From contig VGLK01000003.1 of NCBI GenBank assembly GCA_016866755.1, positions 1-64,000 of the forward strand: a stretch of DNA of 64,000 nt. Direction: 5' to 3'. This DNA is from Candidatus Saccharimonadota bacterium. GTDB taxonomy: Bacteria > Patescibacteriota > Saccharimonadia > Saccharimonadales > Saccharimonadaceae. Position numbers and translations under genes: made by a program. Below, piece by piece: positions 4,105-46,013 of the stretch. The notes under the pieces are model-generated. The model was not told where the DNA came from. It searched no databases and saw nothing but the letters and a program-made list of their open reading frames with translations. Within the stretch, counting starts at the first letter, position 1, and every line of letters begins with the position of its first letter.

Positions 4105-4530
4105 TTAGCCGCGTCGCTTACGACGGCGAAGATCCGCCACCTTAAGCTGTGTGGTGTGTCGTGATATCAGCTGATGCGCCTTGTCGCGCTCAACAACGCT
4201 AGTTGCCGATTCACGCATCTCTCGCGCACGTTCTAGAGCTTGTTTTACGTCACTCTCTACAATTTCGTCGCTATGATCAGCCTCGTCAACTAGTACGCGA
4301 ACAAGGTTTGAAGATATTTCAATAACGCCGCCAGATATTGCAAAATACTCCATCTGGTCATCGCTATCTTCTTTATTTTGCCGAACCGCAATAGCTCCAG
4401 GAACCGCTACAGTAATGAGCGACTCGTGATCAGGGAATACAGCAATTTCACCCTCAACAGTTGGCAGAATCACCTCAAACACCGGCTTATCAAGCTTAAC
4501 ACCAGCTAGCGTTACCAGTTCGAGCCGCAT
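4105..4530 (-). CDS. atpC: ATP synthase F1 epsilon subunit
   Basis: This 141-residue protein has the N-terminal beta-sandwich of subunit epsilon (FPDHESLITVAVPGAIAVR, then AISGGVIEI) and a C-terminal helical hairpin starting near residue 88 (SDEIVESDVKQAL). Epsilon sits on the central stalk with gamma and can inhibit ATP hydrolysis through its C-terminal helices. It is the last gene of the operon, 3 nt after atpD. The C-terminus is basic (RRRKRRG), which is unusual but not disabling. Confidence 0.93.
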   Translation of the reverse strand: MRLELVTLAGVKLDKPVFEVILPTVEGEIAVFPDHESLITVAVPGAIAVRQNKEDSDDQMEYFAISGGVIEISSNLVRVLVDEADHSDEIVESDVKQALERAREMRESATSVVERDKAHQLISRHTTQLKVADLRRRKRRG

Positions 4531-4533
4531 AAA

Positions 4534-6826
<2,293 letters not shown>

Positions 6827-6837
6827 AAATTACCTAA

Positions 6838-8364
6838 TTAATCCTTAAAGCCTTTGCTTACGCTAGCTGCCGTCTCATCAATTGCAACCAACGTTTCATC
6901 GGATGGCTTATCACCTTTATTAAGGGTACGCATAGCCGTTTTGTGTTCTTTCCACAAAGTTGAGAGAAGTGAAGCCTGCGCATCTTTAATACGAGCCACC
7001 GACACTTCGTCAAACGCACCACTGGTAATTGCATGAATACTAACGTACTGCTCCCACACGCCCATTGGTTGATACTGTGACTGTTTAAGTAGCTCGGTTA
7101 AACGTTGTCCACGATCAATCTGCGCCTTTGTAGCACTATCAAGGTCGCTGCCAAATTGCGCAAAACTTGCAAGCTCGCGGTATTGTGAAAGACCAAGTTT
7201 TAAGTTTCCACCAACAGATTTAACGGCTTTGGTTTGTGCTGCACCACCAACACGGCTCACCGAAAGACCAGCTGAAATTGCCGGACGAATACCTTGATTA
7301 AAGAGATCGCTCTCAAGGAAGATTTGCCCATCGGTAATAGAAATAACGTTGGTTGGAATGTAGGCGGAAATATCTCCTGCCTGTGTTTCAATAATCGGAA
7401 GAGCGGTTAACGAACCAGCCCCGAGTGAGTCTGAAAGCTTAGCCGAACGCTCAAGAAGGCGAGAGTGAAGATAAAACACATCACCCGGATACGCTTCGCG
7501 TCCTGGTGGGCGGCGAAGAAGCAGTGACATTTGACGATATGCAACCGCATGTTTCGTTAAATCATCGTAAATCATCAGCGCGTGCTGGCTATTATCACGG
7601 AAATATTCACCCATCGCTGTTGCAGCATAAGGGGCAAGGTAAAGTAGAGAAGCGGGATCACTTGGGCTGGTAGCCACAATAATTGTCTGCTCCATTACGC
7701 CTTCTTCTTTTAGGCGCTCCACTAGTCGGGCAATTTTTGAACGCTTTTGCCCAATTGCCACGTATACATTAACTACGCCAGTTTTTTGGCGAGCTTGGTT
7801 GATCATTGTGTCAATTGCAATTGCAGTTTTACCAGTCTGTCGATCACCAATAATAAGCTCACGCTGACCACGGCCAATTGGGAACATGGCATCAATAGAT
7901 ACGATACCAGTCATAAGAGGTTCATGAACCGATTTTCGTCCCATCACACCAATTGCTGGCCGTTCTACAAGACCAGTTTGCCCCGTAGTGATTGCTGGTC
8001 CACCATCAAGTGCGCGTCCAAGTGGGTCTACTACGCGACCTAAAAGTTCTGGTCCAACCGGCACTTCAAGCTGCGTGCCTTTTAAGGTTACTTTAGCGCC
8101 GGCTTTTACGTCCACGTCTTCGCCAAGGAGTACGGCACCAATCTCATCTTCCATTAGGTTTAGTGCAAATGCCTCAACTGTGCCGTTATTCGACTCAATC
8201 TCTAGCATGTCGCTGTAAGCAGCTTTGCTAAGTCCATGAATCCACGCCACGCCGTCGCCCACACGGATAACAACGCCGGTATTTTCAAGACCAGAAGTTA
8301 CTTCAAGACGTGAGATGGCGTCGCGCAGAGACTGGGAAAGTTCTTTTACTGATACTTCTCTCAT
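6838..8364 (-). CDS. atpA: ATP synthase F1 alpha subunit
   Basis: The non-catalytic nucleotide-binding subunit, 508 residues. It has the beta-barrel N-domain, Walker A GDRQTGKT near residue 170, Walker [12 protein letters not shown] and the signature [17 protein letters not shown] near residue 365, where the conserved Ser-Arg projects into the catalytic site. Full family length. One base separates it from atpH, so translation is probably coupled. Confidence 0.96.
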
Positions 8365-8365
8365 G

Positions 8366-8761
8366 TTAATCCTTTATCTTTATATCTTTTAATTGGGTAA
8401 TTCGTCGCTGTAGGCTGCCATCAAGCTCGTCGAAAGGCGTTTTTACCTTTACGCCGCCAAGCAGGGCAGGGTCGATAGAAGTTCGCAGCTCGACAGTTTG
8501 TGCGCCATACGCGTTCGCCACAAAACTTTTTACAGTTCTCTCTAGTGCCTCACTTAAGCTGTCAGCACTCGTTACATCTACAACTACGAGTCCGCGCCTT
8601 GCAAACTCGGCTTCAATATCTCTTACAACAAGCTCGAGTTCATGCGTACGGTGTTCGGTTACAAGATAAGCTGCAATTTCATCAATTACAGTCTTTGAGC
8701 CTTTTTGCAGTTCGTTAACGGTATATTCGGCCAACTGGTATCGAGATATTTTTTTAGCCAT
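8366..8761 (-). CDS. atpH: ATP synthase F1 delta subunit (short form)
   Basis: At 131 residues this is clearly shorter than the usual 175-180. The C-terminal half is recognisable: a beta-strand and helix segment with the family-like [14 protein letters not shown] and a final [10 protein letters not shown]. The N-terminal six-helix domain that caps the alpha subunits appears reduced to a few helices. It is directly abutted by atpF (stop at 8762, start at 8761) and atpA. Position and C-terminal motif make the assignment secure. The shortened N-domain implies a reduced stator contact. Confidence 0.85.
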
Positions 8762-9304
8762 TTATTGTTTCGCCTCCGAAATTGCACGCTCAATCGTCTT
8801 TGTATCAAGCGCATTGCTAAATTCGTTTGAAACAACTTTTTGAGTCGCTAGAGCAACCAACTCAAGCGTTTCAGAGCGTAGTGCATCTTTTGCCGCCAGA
8901 ACATCTTTGTTAATTTGTTCGTGTGCCGCCGCAACAATTGCATCAGCTTTCATGCGAGATTTTTCTTCTGCCTGAGCTACTGCACTTGCAGCCTCATTGC
9001 GAGCCGTCGATACGATATCACTCGCTTCTTTACGAGCTGTAGAGAGTAGTTTTGCTACTTCATCTTCGGCATTTTCTGCCTTGCGCGCTGCCTCTTCGGC
9101 CATTTTTCGGCTTTCATGAATTTGCTTTTCGCGATCCTCAACTACCTTAAACAGTGCCGGAAACGCATAGCGCGACAATACAAACAATAGAATCAAAAAG
9201 GCAGCTAACTGCATGAACAATGTCATCCAGTCAATGCCAAGTTGACCCATCATGCCCGTCTCGTTAGAGGCTGTAGCGGCAAATTGTTGAAAAGTATTTA
9301 TCAT
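8762..9304 (-). CDS. atpF: ATP synthase F0 b subunit
   Basis: This 180-residue stator protein has an N-terminal stretch of about 25 residues, one membrane helix (MTLFMQLAAFLILLFVLSRY region) and a long charged Ala/Glu/Lys-rich coiled coil. The b-subunit signature VEDREKQI follows the membrane segment. It joins the a/c ring in the membrane to delta at the top of F1. It overlaps neither neighbour and lies 10 nt after atpE. Confidence 0.94.
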   Translation of the reverse strand: MINTFQQFAATASNETGMMGQLGIDWMTLFMQLAAFLILLFVLSRYAFPALFKVVEDREKQIHESRKMAEEAARKAENAEDEVAKLLSTARKEASDIVSTARNEAASAVAQAEEKSRMKADAIVAAAHEQINKDVLAAKDALRSETLELVALATQKVVSNEFSNALDTKTIERAISEAKQ

Positions 9305-9314
9305 TGGTCTCTAC

Positions 9315-9521
9315 TTAGCCGGCGATAAACGCAACAATAATACCAATAATTGCAAGCGAGTCGGCAAAGACAATAGCAAGAATCATCATGGTGCGAATAT
9401 CTTTTACTTTTTCTGGGTTGCGACCAAGTGCGTTAAGTGCGCTCATACCAATCATACCAACGGCAATTGCAGCACCAACTGCAGGTAGGGCGTAAGTTAG
9501 GCCAAATGCTAATGTTTCCAT
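9315..9521 (-). CDS. atpE: ATP synthase F0 c subunit
   Basis: A 68-residue, two-helix proteolipid. Helix 1 has the GAAIAVGMIG glycine motif, the polar loop is RNPEK, and helix 2 carries the ion-binding carboxylate in FADS. The carboxylate is Asp rather than the more common Glu. The helix-1 position where sodium-binding rings carry Gln is Val here (AVG), which favours protons, although the Ser after Asp is a feature of sodium sites. AAGGAG precedes the ATG, the strongest ribosome site in the operon, as expected for the most abundant subunit. Confidence 0.95.
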   Translation of the reverse strand: METLAFGLTYALPAVGAAIAVGMIGMSALNALGRNPEKVKDIRTMMILAIVFADSLAIIGIIVAFIAG

Positions 9522-9570
9522 AACGTGTATTTTCTCCTTGAATTAATTATTTACGTTAACGTATTCCATT

Positions 9571-10398
9571 TCACTCACGTGCCGGAATCTGGGTTAGATT
9601 ATCGGCAGATGAATGATGCGTAGGGGAGTCGTCGTGGTGTTCTTCGCCATGACCTTCTTGAGCAAGGGCGGTAAAGATGAGGGTTAGCATAAAAAACACG
9701 TAGGCCTGAATAAAGCCAATAAATAGCTCGAATACCATTACAACTGGCAAACTTAAGAAGGCGGCGTAGCCAGAAAGTACCGCAATAAGTACCAACAATA
9801 CCTCGCCGGCAAAAGTGTTACCAAACAATCGCAAACTTAACGCAACTAAACGAGAGAATTCACCTACAAGTTCCAAAATACCTTCAAATGCGCCAATCGG
9901 ATCTTTGAGAGGATTACGGAAGTAGCGCCCAGCATTCGAGAAAAAACCGTGCCTACGAATAGCATAAATTTGCACCGCCACCATGGTAATAATTGCCAAT
10001 GCAATTGTAAAGTTAAGGTCGGCCGTAAGGCTACGAAGCACTGGAATTCCGTCTATTGTAATAGGACCAACGCCAGGAATAATTCCTAGCCAGTAATTAA
10101 TAAGTACAAAAAAGAAGATTGCAATTGCAAGCGGAGCAATTTTTCTTGCTAGCTTCGCATCGCCAATAACATCGTTCACCTGAGAAAGAAGTGATTCAAA
10201 TCCCCACTGTACCAAGCCTACAAAGCGGTTAGTTTTACCACGCTTTACTTGTCGAGCGACGTAAAAAAATACCGCAAGTGTAATTATTGTACCAAGCAGA
10301 CCAGTTAACATAGAGTTTGTAACTTCAAAAGAACCAATACGCAGCACCGTTTCTGGGGCAAGGCTGATATGGATGTCTAGTGCGGCAAAATAATTCAT
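9571..10398 (-). CDS. atpB: ATP synthase F0 a subunit
   Basis: This 275-residue, about six-helix membrane protein has the essential Arg in the LSLRLFGN motif (in the stretch after GEFSRLVA) and a conserved C-terminal helix pair (FELFIGFIQAYVFFML). It forms the two half-channels that load and unload the c ring. A His/Asp/Glu-rich tail (EEHHDDSPTHHSS) follows the last helix and is not typical. This is one of the very few genes in the window that end in TGA. Confidence 0.95.
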   Translation of the reverse strand: MNYFAALDIHISLAPETVLRIGSFEVTNSMLTGLLGTIITLAVFFYVARQVKRGKTNRFVGLVQWGFESLLSQVNDVIGDAKLARKIAPLAIAIFFFVLINYWLGIIPGVGPITIDGIPVLRSLTADLNFTIALAIITMVAVQIYAIRRHGFFSNAGRYFRNPLKDPIGAFEGILELVGEFSRLVALSLRLFGNTFAGEVLLVLIAVLSGYAAFLSLPVVMVFELFIGFIQAYVFFMLTLIFTALAQEGHGEEHHDDSPTHHSSADNLTQIPARE

Positions 10399-10407
10399 TA
10401 CTTAAGG

Positions 10408-10653
10408 TTAATCCTGTGTTAGTTGTCGGTATATAAGTAGGGCAGCCAGTATAAACCCCACAGCAGCTCCAATTAATGTGTATAGCGGCTTGGTGGCAAA
10501 CTCTGCATCGAGCGCAGCGCCTAAAAGTGTAAAGCCGATTGTCGGCACAAACATTCGCATTGTGGTGCTAAATCCTGCAGCCAAAATGATTGAAATAGGT
10601 GTGTCGGTAGGCGGCACAGGCGTTTCTCCGGGTTGTTTAGGAGATTTGCTCAT
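10408..10653 (-). CDS. AtpZ/AtpI-like small membrane protein
   Basis: An 81-residue protein with a Pro/Thr-rich N-terminus and two hydrophobic helices separated by a short loop (LDAEFATKP). This matches the AtpZ/AtpI accessory family encoded first in many F0F1 operons and thought to help c-ring assembly or ion supply. It lies 9 nt upstream of atpB. A TATAAA on the minus strand (10659-10664) ends 5 nt before its ATG, so the operon transcript probably begins at or near its start codon. Confidence 0.75.
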   Translation of the reverse strand: MSKSPKQPGETPVPPTDTPISIILAAGFSTTMRMFVPTIGFTLLGAALDAEFATKPLYTLIGAAVGFILAALLIYRQLTQD

Positions 10654-10693: not shown

Positions 10694-10915
10694 ATGCCAC
10701 GACGACATAAAAACTCTCCTAACAAACAGCCGCTACAATCATTGTCAGCACTTTCTACCTGTGGAGGCAAAAAACGCTTTACCCAAGAATTTGCTGTTCA
10801 AGAAGCAATTTATATAACATCTCTTCAGCAGCCTTCGCTGCAGCTTAGTTATTATAAATGCCCAACATGCCGCGGCTGGCACCTTACTAGAAATTCAACA
10901 CTGGAACAATATTAG
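10694..10915 (+). CDS. Small Cys-containing protein (73 aa)
   Basis: A basic 73-residue protein that ends with a YYKCPTCRGWHLT segment. One CxxC pair followed by GWHLT is a recurring C-terminal motif in small bacterial and phage proteins of unknown function. A third Cys lies at about residue 23 (STCGGK). ATG at 10694 is chosen because it follows GAAAGG at 10675-10680 and the plus-strand -10 at 10661-10666. Its last 29 bases overlap the end of the converging pilin-RCC1 gene. Confidence 0.6.
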   Translation: MPRRHKNSPNKQPLQSLSALSTCGGKKRFTQEFAVQEAIYITSLQQPSLQLSYYKCPTCRGWHLTRNSTLEQY

Positions 10916-12722
10916 TTAAGCGGTTGGCTTTTGGCGTTGAGCTGTTGGTTGTGGTGCCGTCGCCAAGTTGGCCATGGCTGTTATTGCCAACAGTATAAAT
11001 CTTTTTGTCAGTTGAAAGAATAACAGTTGTACCGTAGCCAGCTTGTATTCGCTCTGCACGTACATTAACTCCATCAAATACCTGCATAGCCACAGGGGTT
11101 GAACGTGCAGTTGTTGTGCCATCGCCCAGCTGTCCATACATATTTCCTCCTGCACCATACACGCGACCATTGTCGCCAATAACAAAAACATTATTTGTAT
11201 CTGGATTACTGTCTCCGGTTGAAGTATTGTATACATCTACCGCTCGTACACCTGCAGGCAACCTAAACTTAACGGCACGAGTTTGGTGCCAAGTATTGCC
11301 GTTACCCAGTTGACCGCGACTATTCAGTCCTGCGCTACACACTTCTCCGGTATCTGTCAAAATACTGGCCGACCATTGATCTGTTGATACTTTAACGGCG
11401 CGCCCCGTGCAAGCCGATAAGTCCATGCGTGTCATTGTACGCACATCATTATACGTAGTAGTACCTAACCCTAATTGGCCATGCACATCTTCACCGGCCG
11501 ACCACGCAGTTCCATCTTGATCAATAATATAAAACGACACGCCATCGTACCCAATGTCTACCGCCTTGCGCGTGGTACCGTTCCACGATCCAATTACGAT
11601 TGGCGTATAGGCATCGGTGTAGCTATAGTTTGCTAACTGACCTTGATCGTTCATGCCCCAGCCATACACAGCGCCATTTGCACCTAAAACGTAACCGCCA
11701 ATTCTGTCTGCCGAAACTTTAACCGGCACAAAATTAGATGGAAAAACCATTTGCTGCGGCGTGCTAATAGACGTACACGAAGTTGGTCCAATTCCTAACT
11801 GCCCATTACCGCAGTGACCAGACGCATACATTGTGTCGTCAGACATTACAAAAAAAGTACTGTTATGCAGAGGAACTGCATACTTAATCTTACGCTGATT
11901 CGGTACTCCGGGAATTTTAATTGATTCAGGAGTTAAGATTGGAGAACTGGTACTGCGTCCAATTCCTAACTGGCCATTATTATTGCGACCAGTTGCATAA
12001 CCCATGCCGTCCTCTGTTATTGCATACATGTGAAAACCAATAGATAAAAAGCTTGCATAAGCAGCTGTTGCACGCTTTTGATCGGGCAAGATAAAGTCAC
12101 TCGGTTCAGCAGAAGAGGTGTTTGTACCATTTCCAAGCTGGCCGTCAGCGTTATAGCCAACCGTATACAATCGACCATTATCTCCGATAGCTGCAAAATA
12201 AGAGCCATTTAGGTTGTAGCCGAATGTAACGGTATTAAAGTTTACATCGGCACCTATTCGAGAGTTGAGCGAAACTTCCGTTCGATCGAGTACCGCATCA
12301 TCGCTCGCACGAATCTGTTCGGCATAACCCTTAACAGCAATTACTTGCGCCGAACCTAAACGAGTGGGCGCGTCTACCTCAAACCAGGTGCGCGTCGTAT
12401 CATCAGACATAACATAGCAGTTAGCAGTAGCACTATTTGTGCATGGACTGCCGCCGCTACACGCAGTATGCGCGTATAGTTTATTGGCGTTTGTCCACGC
12501 AGCAATGTAGCTACTATCACCTAAACACGCCAGGGCACGCGCCACGCCAGATTCGGCCGCCTCGCGGGCTTGCTGTGATTGCACAGAATCGCTTAAGGCA
12601 GAGCTTACTCCGCTAATACTTTGCGCCGCCAAAGCTAATAGCGCCATCAATACAACCGATGAAATTAATACTGTCGGTAAGGCAAACCCATTCAACTTGC
12701 GTGTGTTTTTCATTTTGCTCAT
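10887..12722 (-). CDS. PilX/GspK-like prepilin fused to an RCC1 beta-propeller
   Basis: The N-terminus (NGFALPTVLI, then about 20 hydrophobic residues) is a prepilin-type signal without Glu at mature position 5, as in tip-located GspK and some PilX proteins. The following 100 or so residues contain QQAREAAESGVARAL, typical of PilX-like minor pilins, and five cysteines. From about residue 170 come eight RCC1-type repeats, each with a [D/N]xGxxYxxGxNxxGQLGxG pattern, forming a seven- or eight-bladed propeller. In all, 611 residues. RCC1 domains mediate protein binding. The architecture suggests a propeller displayed on a type IV pilus, possibly at its tip. Function inferred. Confidence 0.8.
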   Translation of the reverse strand: MSKMKNTRKLNGFALPTVLISSVVLMALLALAAQSISGVSSALSDSVQSQQAREAAESGVARALACLGDSSYIAAWTNANKLYAHTACSGGSPCTNSATANCYVMSDDTTRTWFEVDAPTRLGSAQVIAVKGYAEQIRASDDAVLDRTEVSLNSRIGADVNFNTVTFGYNLNGSYFAAIGDNGRLYTVGYNADGQLGNGTNTSSAEPSDFILPDQKRATAAYASFLSIGFHMYAITEDGMGYATGRNNNGQLGIGRSTSSPILTPESIKIPGVPNQRKIKYAVPLHNSTFFVMSDDTMYASGHCGNGQLGIGPTSCTSISTPQQMVFPSNFVPVKVSADRIGGYVLGANGAVYGWGMNDQGQLANYSYTDAYTPIVIGSWNGTTRKAVDIGYDGVSFYIIDQDGTAWSAGEDVHGQLGLGTTTYNDVRTMTRMDLSACTGRAVKVSTDQWSASILTDTGEVCSAGLNSRGQLGNGNTWHQTRAVKFRLPAGVRAVDVYNTSTGDSNPDTNNVFVIGDNGRVYGAGGNMYGQLGDGTTTARSTPVAMQVFDGVNVRAERIQAGYGTTVILSTDKKIYTVGNNSHGQLGDGTTTNSSTPKANRLTNIVPVLNF

Positions 12723-12770: not shown

Positions 12771-12803
12771 TATACTGGAAGTACTAAAAGGAGGACATAG
12801 ATG
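12771..12803 (+). promoter_or_regulatory. Promoter and strong RBS of glutaredoxin gene
   Basis: TATACT at 12771-12776 preceded by TGC, then AAAGGAGG at 12787-12794 and ATG at 12801. This is a conventional leader with a near-perfect Shine-Dalgarno, in contrast to the leaderless pattern of many neighbours. Confidence 0.65.
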
Positions 12804-13085
12804 GCAGAAGACGTTATAACCGCACAGGTTACGGTTTATAGCACAAGTTGGTGCGCATTTTGCCACACCGAAATGGAATGGCTCAACAAACTTGGCATTC
12901 CGTTTGTAGCAAAAGACATTGAAGCCGATAAGGCCGCGTATGAAGAACTTATGGCTCGCATTGGCGGTAGCTTTCAGGGCGTGCCGGTAACCGCTATCGG
13001 CGACGAAACAATCCTAGGTTTCGATCGACCAAAAATTCAAGCCGCACTTGATGCAAACAACATTAAGCCTAACGAAAAAAATTAG
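12801..13085 (+). CDS. Glutaredoxin-like thiol oxidoreductase
   Basis: This 94-residue thioredoxin-fold protein has the redox motif Cys18-Ala-Phe-Cys21 after a VYSTSW strand. It also has a cis-Pro in GVPVTAIG and a C-terminal GFDRPKIQAAL helix, which fits the NrdH/YruB-like glutaredoxin group. It probably reduces protein disulfides, or ribonucleotide reductase, in the cytoplasm. The partner reductase is not visible here. It has a strong Shine-Dalgarno and ends at a terminator. Confidence 0.85.
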   Translation: MAEDVITAQVTVYSTSWCAFCHTEMEWLNKLGIPFVAKDIEADKAAYEELMARIGGSFQGVPVTAIGDETILGFDRPKIQAALDANNIKPNEKN

Positions 13086-13145: not shown

Positions 13146-14795
13146 TTAACCAATCGTGATTACTTGGCCGCCAAGTGCCGACTGAAAATACGCATCGTGC
13201 GAAACATACAATACTGCGCCGCTATAGCGAGATAATGCCGATTCTAGCTCTTCAATACTAGGAAGATCGAGGTGGTTAGTTGGCTCATCGAGCACTAATA
13301 GTTGCGGGTCGTTGGCGAGCATAGCAATAATTTGAAAACGGGCTTTCTGACCACCACTTAAACGCGAAAGCGGTGTTTGACGATCGCCATCGGTGAATAA
13401 ATAATCACTTAATAAGCGTCGAATCTTGGTGTCGCCAATGCTTAAGTCTCTATCTAAATACATTTTTTCAATCGCGTCTTCGAGTGGCAACGAAAGGTAT
13501 GTTGAAGCAATCTCTTGCTCGTACACGCCAACACGCGTGTGCGGCTCAATGGCTGCCTCGCCGCTAAATCGCGTACTAGCGGTCGCTGCTTCACCCTGCA
13601 ATAAATAGGCAAGAAGAGTGGTTTTACCGGCACCATTTCGACCACGCAGCTCAAGTGCTTCGCCTTCACGTAACTCAAAGTGAACACCCTTAAACAGGGG
13701 AGAGGCTTCGTAACCAAGGCTTATATCTACCGCCCGCACCAACACACGCGAGGTTTCGCTCTCATAATCTTTTACCTGCAAACGAATATTTTTTGCCTTT
13801 AATTTATCGTAGTTAGCGGCCGACTTATAATCAAGCTGCGCCACAGAATCTTTGTCTATCCAAAATGTCGGTTTTTCTTTACGCTCAAGCTCAGCCAGCT
13901 CGGCTCGTGAAGTTTGCTCAAGGCGTTTAAACTTTTGAATAGTACCAGGGTTGCGCGACTTTTCTTTTAGTCGCTGATAATCAATAATTTTTTGTTTTAA
14001 ATTCGTTTTACGCTTTTCGGTATTTTCAAAATCATTCATGCCAGCAGCAGTTGTGTGCGCATTTTGCTTTAGGTACGCATCATAGTTGCCATCAAATGTC
14101 ATCGACGTACCGTCATCTTTCAGCTCTACAATTTTATCAACCTCTTTTAATACATCGCGGTCGTGGGTAACAATTAACATGGCCTGACGATGGGCCGATT
14201 TAACCCAGCTAATAAATTGTTCTTTAGCTACAAAATCCATATGGTTGGTCGGCTCGTCTATTAACGCCAAATCAGCATCGGCGTGCATAACTTTTACAAT
14301 CTCAACTAGACGTTTTTGCCCACCCGATAGCGAACCGATTGCCCGATCGTTCATATTTAGCAGCCCAAAACGTTTTAGCTCTTCAGCTACGCGCTCTTCA
14401 ATTTCGTAAAAACCTTTGTCGTCAAAGCGTTCAAGCGCCTGTGTATATTTATCAATTTGGCGCATGTCGTCGCCCATTGTAAGTGGCAGAGTATCAATTT
14501 GATCTTTTAAATTTTTATATTCAGGTAGCCCCTCTAGTATGTAGGCTAGCACCGAACGCTCGTGCACGTCGTGGTGTTCCTGAGCAGTAGCCAAGACACT
14601 TGCACCGCGCTTAAAGTTAATGTCGCCAGTAAAATCGGTGTCGGTGCCAGCGAGTACGCTAAAAAGCGTGGATTTTCCAACGCCATTTCGGCCAATTATG
14701 CCAATTTTATCGCCATCGTTCACCCAAAAACGAACGTCTTTCATAAGCGTTTTAGAGCCGAAACTTTTTTCGGTAATGTGTACGTCAGCAATCAT
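13146..14795 (-). CDS. ABC-F family ATPase
   Basis: This 549-residue protein has two ABC ATPase domains and no membrane segment. Domain 1 has Walker A GRNGVGKST near residue 36, signature LSGGQ and Walker B ALIDEPTNHMD. A charged linker follows, and domain 2 has GRNGAGKTT, LSGGQ and LLVLDEPTNHLD. ABC-F proteins act on the ribosome, in translation rescue, stalling relief or antibiotic resistance. The subtype (Uup, EttA or Vga-like) cannot be set from this. TACACT ends 8 nt before the ATG. Confidence 0.92.
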   Translation of the reverse strand: MIADVHITEKSFGSKTLMKDVRFWVNDGDKIGIIGRNGVGKSTLFSVLAGTDTDFTGDINFKRGASVLATAQEHHDVHERSVLAYILEGLPEYKNLKDQIDTLPLTMGDDMRQIDKYTQALERFDDKGFYEIEERVAEELKRFGLLNMNDRAIGSLSGGQKRLVEIVKVMHADADLALIDEPTNHMDFVAKEQFISWVKSAHRQAMLIVTHDRDVLKEVDKIVELKDDGTSMTFDGNYDAYLKQNAHTTAAGMNDFENTEKRKTNLKQKIIDYQRLKEKSRNPGTIQKFKRLEQTSRAELAELERKEKPTFWIDKDSVAQLDYKSAANYDKLKAKNIRLQVKDYESETSRVLVRAVDISLGYEASPLFKGVHFELREGEALELRGRNGAGKTTLLAYLLQGEAATASTRFSGEAAIEPHTRVGVYEQEIASTYLSLPLEDAIEKMYLDRDLSIGDTKIRRLLSDYLFTDGDRQTPLSRLSGGQKARFQIIAMLANDPQLLVLDEPTNHLDLPSIEELESALSRYSGAVLYVSHDAYFQSALGGQVITIG

Positions 14796-45441: not shown

Positions 45442-45543
45442 TACATCGTTCAATCTTATTTATATTGGCATAGGTAATTTGTGTATTAAAATAATCAAAA
45501 TTTGCACAAGCAGACTAAACCCGTCAAGCAGATTGGAAGTTCA

Positions 45544-45940
45544 ATGTCGAACGACCACAGTGCCCTCAGCGCGGCGCCGACGAGCGTGTAGCTCACCGAC
45601 CTCAAGCTGGCCGCCGAGGATCCGAGCGGGCACTACAGCCCGTCGCCCCTCGTGGACATCGGCTGGCACACGTTCATCCTGTACACCCGCTCCTACGGCG
45701 AGCTGTGCCGGAGGATCACCGGGGGTAGGTTCATCTATTACGAGCCGACCGACGAGACCGATACGCTCAACCCCAGTAGGGGCTCGTACGAGACGATGAA
45801 GGCCATGAAGATGGCCGGCATCACCGTCGACGAGCCCCTGTGGGCCTGCCTGTGCAAGGCGGACCACTCCGAGGCCAAACGGCGACTGCAGCAACTGCAA
45901 CGGCGGCCAGGGCTGCCAGTGCGGAGCCTGCATCTACTGA
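45544..45940 (+). pseudogene. Broken high-GC actinobacterial-type gene
   Basis: From ATG 45544 (GGAAG site at 45535-45539) the frame meets TAG at 45589-45591, then continues open with SPSPLVDIGWHTFILYTRSYGE, best read as PSPLVDIGWHTFILYTR. GGRFIYYEPTDE and AGITVDEPLWA follow. After GCC-AAA-C near 45874-45880 a one-base shift into another frame gives a Cys-rich end (GDCSNCNGGQGCQCGACIY) and TGA at 45938. I recall this VDIGWHTF layout from streptomycete proteins labelled glycine-rich-domain-containing. GC is far above the neighbours. The amber codon and one extra A break it, unless they are sequence errors. Confidence 0.65.
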
Positions 45941-46013
45941 TCAGACTTCGGTCAGGTCATCGTGTCCAGTATTCTTCCGCAAGGAGGCGTGCTGGGCACG
46001 CTTAAATTTTATG

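Follow-up and report, generated by a model that had tools for sequence, protein, structure and literature searches.

A probable type IV pilus tip subunit with an RCC1-propeller head, encoded beside the ATP synthase operon of an episymbiotic Saccharibacterium

The window analysed here, a stretch of 64,000 nucleotides from a saccharibacterial genome, carries on its minus strand an open reading frame of 611 residues, which occupies exactly the interval in the first row of Table 1 and probably encodes a type IV pilus (T4P) tip subunit of an episymbiotic Saccharibacterium with an RCC1-propeller head. On one side the gene directly precedes the ATP synthase operon; on the other it is flanked by a glutaredoxin gene and an ABC-F gene. 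Its base composition showed no sign of recent acquisition, and a recent acquisition of the gene therefore finds no support there. Elsewhere in the window, another small prepilin-like gene with an N_methyl match is present at 1440-2000, and a block of 62-64% GC with unusual ORFs and no E. coli match lies at 45500-46000 inside a region of about 40-45% GC.

Table 1. Features of the tip pilin gene and its flanks (positions in the window)
Feature	Position	Strand	Basis
Modular tip pilin (PilX2-type, probable) with RCC1 propeller, whole gene, 611 aa	10887..12722	-	ORF, Pfam, AF2
Leader peptide (MSKMKNTRKLNG, residues 1-12), with the prepilin peptidase predicted to cut behind Gly12	12687..12722	-	homologue conservation
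Pilin alpha-1 helix, residues 13-69, Thr replacing Glu at +5	12516..12686	-	AF2 helix 15-69; conserved residues
Small pilin head, residues 70-157 (W76, C88, beta strands 110-156)	12252..12515	-	AF2; L085 homologous head; stalk profile A1
RCC1 propeller, residues 162-600, eight repeats x four strands	10923..12239	-	Pfam, AF2, Foldseek, repeat count
Loop, residues about 420-438; Ricin-B lectin insertion site in most close relatives, none here	11409..11465	-	relative comparison
ATP synthase operon, conserved downstream flank of slot, not pilus part	4105..10653	-	synteny
Glutaredoxin-like gene, conserved upstream flank of slot	12801..13085	+	synteny
ABC-F ATPase gene, conserved upstream flank of slot	13146..14795	-	synteny

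Eight stretches of the protein matched the Pfam RCC1 model PF00415 above the curated cut-off (158 bits), the RCC1-like domain model PF25390 scored 203 bits, and a sequence search of the PDB returned UVR8, HERC2, RPGR and RCC1. The AlphaFold2 model built from a 13-sequence input (pLDDT 83, pTM 0.72) showed a helix running without interruption from residue 15 to residue 69, head strands at 110-156, and then an RCC1-type propeller region, residues 162-600, in which 32 strands make up eight sets of four. Foldseek matched UVR8, RCC1, RPGR and HERC2, with E-values down to 2e-29 and an rmsd of about 4 A, UVR8 and RCC1 being the best. The first-pass annotation had claimed a pilin-like stem lacking Glu5 joined to eight RCC1 repeats and had proposed a structural model as a check; both the layout and the helix are borne out by the ORF, Pfam, AlphaFold2 and the count of sites in 63 stalks given below.

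The RCC1-like domains of UVR8, RCC1, HERC2 and RPGR have seven blades, and the window protein shares the repeat and the blade fold with these intracellular, eukaryotic proteins but has eight repeats. Exactly eight repeats were also found in 15 relatives, nearly all with Ricin-B, and this count suggests that the head is an eight-bladed propeller. The other RCC1 tips of the slot or of pilin operons mostly have 7, 14 or 21 repeats (21 in TM7i and L096), and a few distant ones have 6, 9, 11 or 13. Blade number is known to be variable among propellers (PMC8458387, PMC9218822). The source genome encodes a second RCC1 protein of 802 aa (L009:6382-8790), which lacks a pilin stalk and bears an ordinary Sec-like signal.

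The N-terminus reads MSKMKNTRKLNG^FALPT, the caret marking the predicted cut, with Thr and not Glu at position +5; it continues as MSKMKNTRKLNG^FALPTVLISSVVLMALLALAAQ...AREAAESG (in a longer rendering, MSKMKNTRKLNG^FALPTVLISSVV...). This is the arrangement of a prepilin peptidase site, a basic leader ending in Gly or Ala before a hydrophobic segment that starts with Phe or Met. Among 63 homologous stalks, in a position search that demanded Leu at +3, position -1 was Gly in 55 and Ala in 8, +1 was Phe in 63/63, +4 was Pro in 60, and +5 was Thr in 53 and Glu in 0, as in pilins of the GspK/PilX type. Homologues lacking the peptidase site, which had been named beforehand as grounds for doubt, did not turn up, since G/A^F was present in all 63. 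Conservation of the stalk (F13, L15, V18, I20, G59, A63, C66, L67, W76, L82, C88 and G90) extends beyond the hydrophobic segment. The window protein and the L085 homologue share a long alpha-1 helix with a small beta-sheet head behind it; the L085 model has a helix at residues 13-67 and a pLDDT mostly of 92-98 over residues 41-150, lower in the N-terminal part of the helix and poor in the tip.

The stalk was not matched by the Pfam models N_methyl (PF07963), PilX_N or T2SSK, and searches against Pfam, NCBIfam, PDB sequences and Foldseek linked it to no known pilin family; the stalk and head of the L085 model, with its low-confidence tip, likewise gave no significant Foldseek match to a solved pilin. 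Because the Pfam pilin models are silent, the pilin identity rests on the site, the helix, the head and the genomic context. A gene for the A24 peptidase PilD is present in the source genome. The stalk subfamily is nearly restricted to Saccharimonadaceae, and its named members are Saccharibacteria MAGs and the cultured TM7i.

Both flanks of the slot are conserved for 37 of the 63 unique stalk pilins; of these 37, RCC1 tips account for 18, glycine-rich tips for 15 and other tips for 4. According to Pfam, the same stalk, at the slot or elsewhere, carries RCC1 repeats, RCC1 repeats with an inserted Ricin-B lectin, Gly_rich_2 tips (some with a weak, sub-threshold PA14, others with fibrinogen C), phage tail collar and Gp10_C baseplate domains (L085:6010-6948, L111:5974-8754), a lactonase-type propeller (L092) or a sub-threshold Ig-like domain (L134). 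In several glycine-rich versions the pilin head is interrupted by the insert at profile position 99. Mapped onto the stalk tree, the tip types require 14 changes against a shuffled mean of 26, and the RCC1 tips of L096, L136 and L149 are nested in a mostly glycine-rich group; the exact numbers of tip changes are uncertain because the trees are built on few columns and have many unresolved forks. The window stalk clusters (support 99/88) with L141 and L147, which have RCC1 and Ricin-B at the same slot, and the window protein (P0001), which lacks the Ricin-B insert, is 61% identical to that of L147 across the last 189 residues. The survey of Saccharibacteria proposed in the first-pass annotation thus found the same fusion to be common. 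A relocated PilX2 peculiar to the source genome was ruled out, as many relatives have the atp slot too, and so was a single orthologous propeller at this slot, as the tips differ between relatives. At this slot the cultured TM7i encodes a tip pilin of 1330 aa containing 21 RCC1 repeats (L091:5959-9948), which is a practical experimental target.

Two T4P systems are encoded in the source genome. T4P-1 (L064) consists of PilB, PilC, PilT, PilD and minor pilins, and the T4P-2 machinery (L066) of PilB2, PilC2 and PilM2, with a separate pilin locus (L065:7580-12904) composed of murB, three minor pilins, two PilA2 and glyA. No tip pilin lies between murB and glyA at this locus, and 19 other genomes examined likewise have a murB-glyA locus without a tip pilin, the latter being placed elsewhere. 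The murB-glyA T4P-2 locus includes an RCC1 tip pilin in G121, G133 and G089 and a tail-collar tip pilin in L085. Among high-quality genomes of the family, one per genus, the stalk was present in 24/29 with two PilC and in 0/12 with one PilC (Fisher p = 8e-7, a test that ignores phylogeny), which agrees with the co-occurrence with a pilus system anticipated earlier. As the presence of the stalk tracks the second T4P system, the protein most likely serves T4P-2. The stalk was not detected in five two-PilC genomes, which may use a more divergent one.

Further pilin genes were observed in the same genomes. Across 848 kb, N_methyl matches number about 40 in the source genome, whose T4P-2 minor pilin beside pilA2 (L065:9578-10372) is 264 aa long here and about 500-720 aa in most relatives. 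A run of 15 tandem pilin genes at L067:7063-15609 (C5:22063-30609 of the source genome), in which identity averages 96% over the first 32 residues counted from the prepilin site but 21% over the remainders, resembles a variable pilin array. RCC1-like repeats are joined to a canonical Glu5 pilin N-terminus (GFTIVELL) at L072:8359-9951, apparently an independent pilin-RCC1 fusion, and the second tandem RCC1 pilin of G145 (L068:12656-14911) has an in-frame stop separating stalk from propeller.

The closest known system is PilX2 of Nanosynbacter lyticus TM7x, a minor pilin with a seven-bladed RCC1 beta-propeller that its authors proposed as the T4P-2 adhesin, and whose deletion lowered host binding from 10.6% to 4.6% with thin pili retained (PMC12206443, 2025). 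Like the window protein, it is a saccharibacterial minor pilin with a C-terminal RCC1 propeller and a noncanonical leader, a candidate T4P-2 adhesin in a genome with two T4P systems. The two differ, as far as a comparison by description goes, in that PilX2 is seven-bladed and encoded in the T4P-2 pilin locus, whereas the window protein has eight repeats and its gene stands alone beside the ATP synthase operon, outside the source genome's T4P-2 pilin locus. An RCC1-tipped saccharibacterial pilin is therefore already known. The first-pass annotation had proposed a host-recognition adhesin on a pilus, which is plausible because the deletion of the analogous TM7x PilX2 cuts host binding; its statement that there was no described example does not hold, given that publication.

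Modular type IV pilins have already been described as a general class (PMC8179133); in PilB and PilC of Streptococcus sanguinis, a binding module that acts in adhesion is grafted onto a small pilin part and is expected to lie at the tip. PilB differs there in keeping Glu5 and the standard N_methyl motif and in carrying a vWA module, and the main-text passages mention neither RCC1 nor tip exchange at the same locus (PMC8179133). PilY1/PilC of diderm T4aP also place a beta-propeller at the tip, with roles in adhesion and assembly (PMC12206443, and the relevant passages of PMC8179133), but PilY1 itself is no pilin, and the propeller it carries belongs to a different family.

In view of the computed architecture, stalk homology, slot, tip exchange and T4P-2 co-occurrence, the window protein is likely to be a tip adhesin of T4P-2, processed by PilD, that binds the host surface with its propeller; cleavage after Gly12, incorporation into pili, tip position, ligand and host binding are predictions. 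PilD would cut the leader after Gly12, and the helix would enter the pilus via the inner-membrane platform PilC2. A place at the tip, alongside the T4P-2 minor pilins, is probable because Glu5 is lacking and the head is bulky. The filament would then present the RCC1 propeller at its far end, where the face or the loops of the propeller may bind a molecule of the host cell surface and so hold the episymbiont in place. Within this lineage, the gene would have moved out of the T4P-2 pilin operon into the slot on the upstream side of the ATP synthase operon, and the binding module on the conserved stalk would have been swapped repeatedly in evolution, as expected if host surfaces change. Against this reading stand the absence of a link between the stalk and known pilin families in Pfam, PDB-sequence and Foldseek searches, the 'ALAAQ' at residues 30-34, in principle a signal peptidase I site, the resemblance to TM7x PilX2, which is one of description and not of sequence, and the fact that TM7x PilX2 itself has no predicted PilD site (PMC12206443).

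The protein might instead be a priming or structural minor pilin that starts T4P-2 assembly, its tip being tolerated bulk or serving surface sensing and not host recognition. Pilins of the GspK/PilX type without Glu5 prime pilus assembly, and the tips are so varied that a shared function could reside in the stalk. The pilX2 deletion in TM7x altered the diameter and length of thick pili, yet the mutant keeps thin pili while its host binding is halved (PMC12206443), and the tip modules time and again belong to folds known for binding (Ricin-B, fibrinogen C, PA14-like, phage tail collar), so that we regard this explanation as unlikely. An ordinary Sec-exported or membrane-anchored RCC1 surface protein outside the pilus, with the hydrophobic N-terminus as signal peptide or anchor, is likewise unlikely: the missing Pfam pilin match, the ALA-AQ after the hydrophobic segment and the Sec-like signal on the genome's other RCC1 protein speak for it, but the G/A^F-x-L-P-T core kept in nearly all 63 homologues is unlike a Sec signal, the helix is unbroken to residue 69 with conservation beyond its hydrophobic part, homologues sit within T4P-2 pilin operons, and the stalk is tied to two-PilC genomes.

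Returning to the tip adhesin, we tentatively suggest, as a possibility somewhat short of even, that the slot is a host-range cassette of Saccharibacteria, in which RCC1 (7/8/14/21 repeats), Ricin-B, fibrinogen-C, PA14-like, glycine-rich and phage tail collar modules are swapped on a constant stalk as lineages change hosts, the window version being an eight-bladed RCC1 propeller; such swapping may be likened to the tip exchange of phage tail fibres. Neither the repeated exchange of tips at a fixed locus nor the eight-repeat propeller appears to have been described: a search of the open-access literature, with subscription papers and preprints outside its scope, returned no description of the displacement to a fixed slot with repeated exchange or of the eight-repeat propeller, and nothing on saccharibacterial pilins that are glycine-rich or exchange their tips.

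Little is known of how episymbiotic Patescibacteria recognize particular host bacteria. A tip adhesin encoded by one gene, with a constant stalk and at a locus that synteny reveals in many genomes of the family, would make host-recognition modules readable from sequence, and such modules would be testable singly, including in the cultured TM7i.
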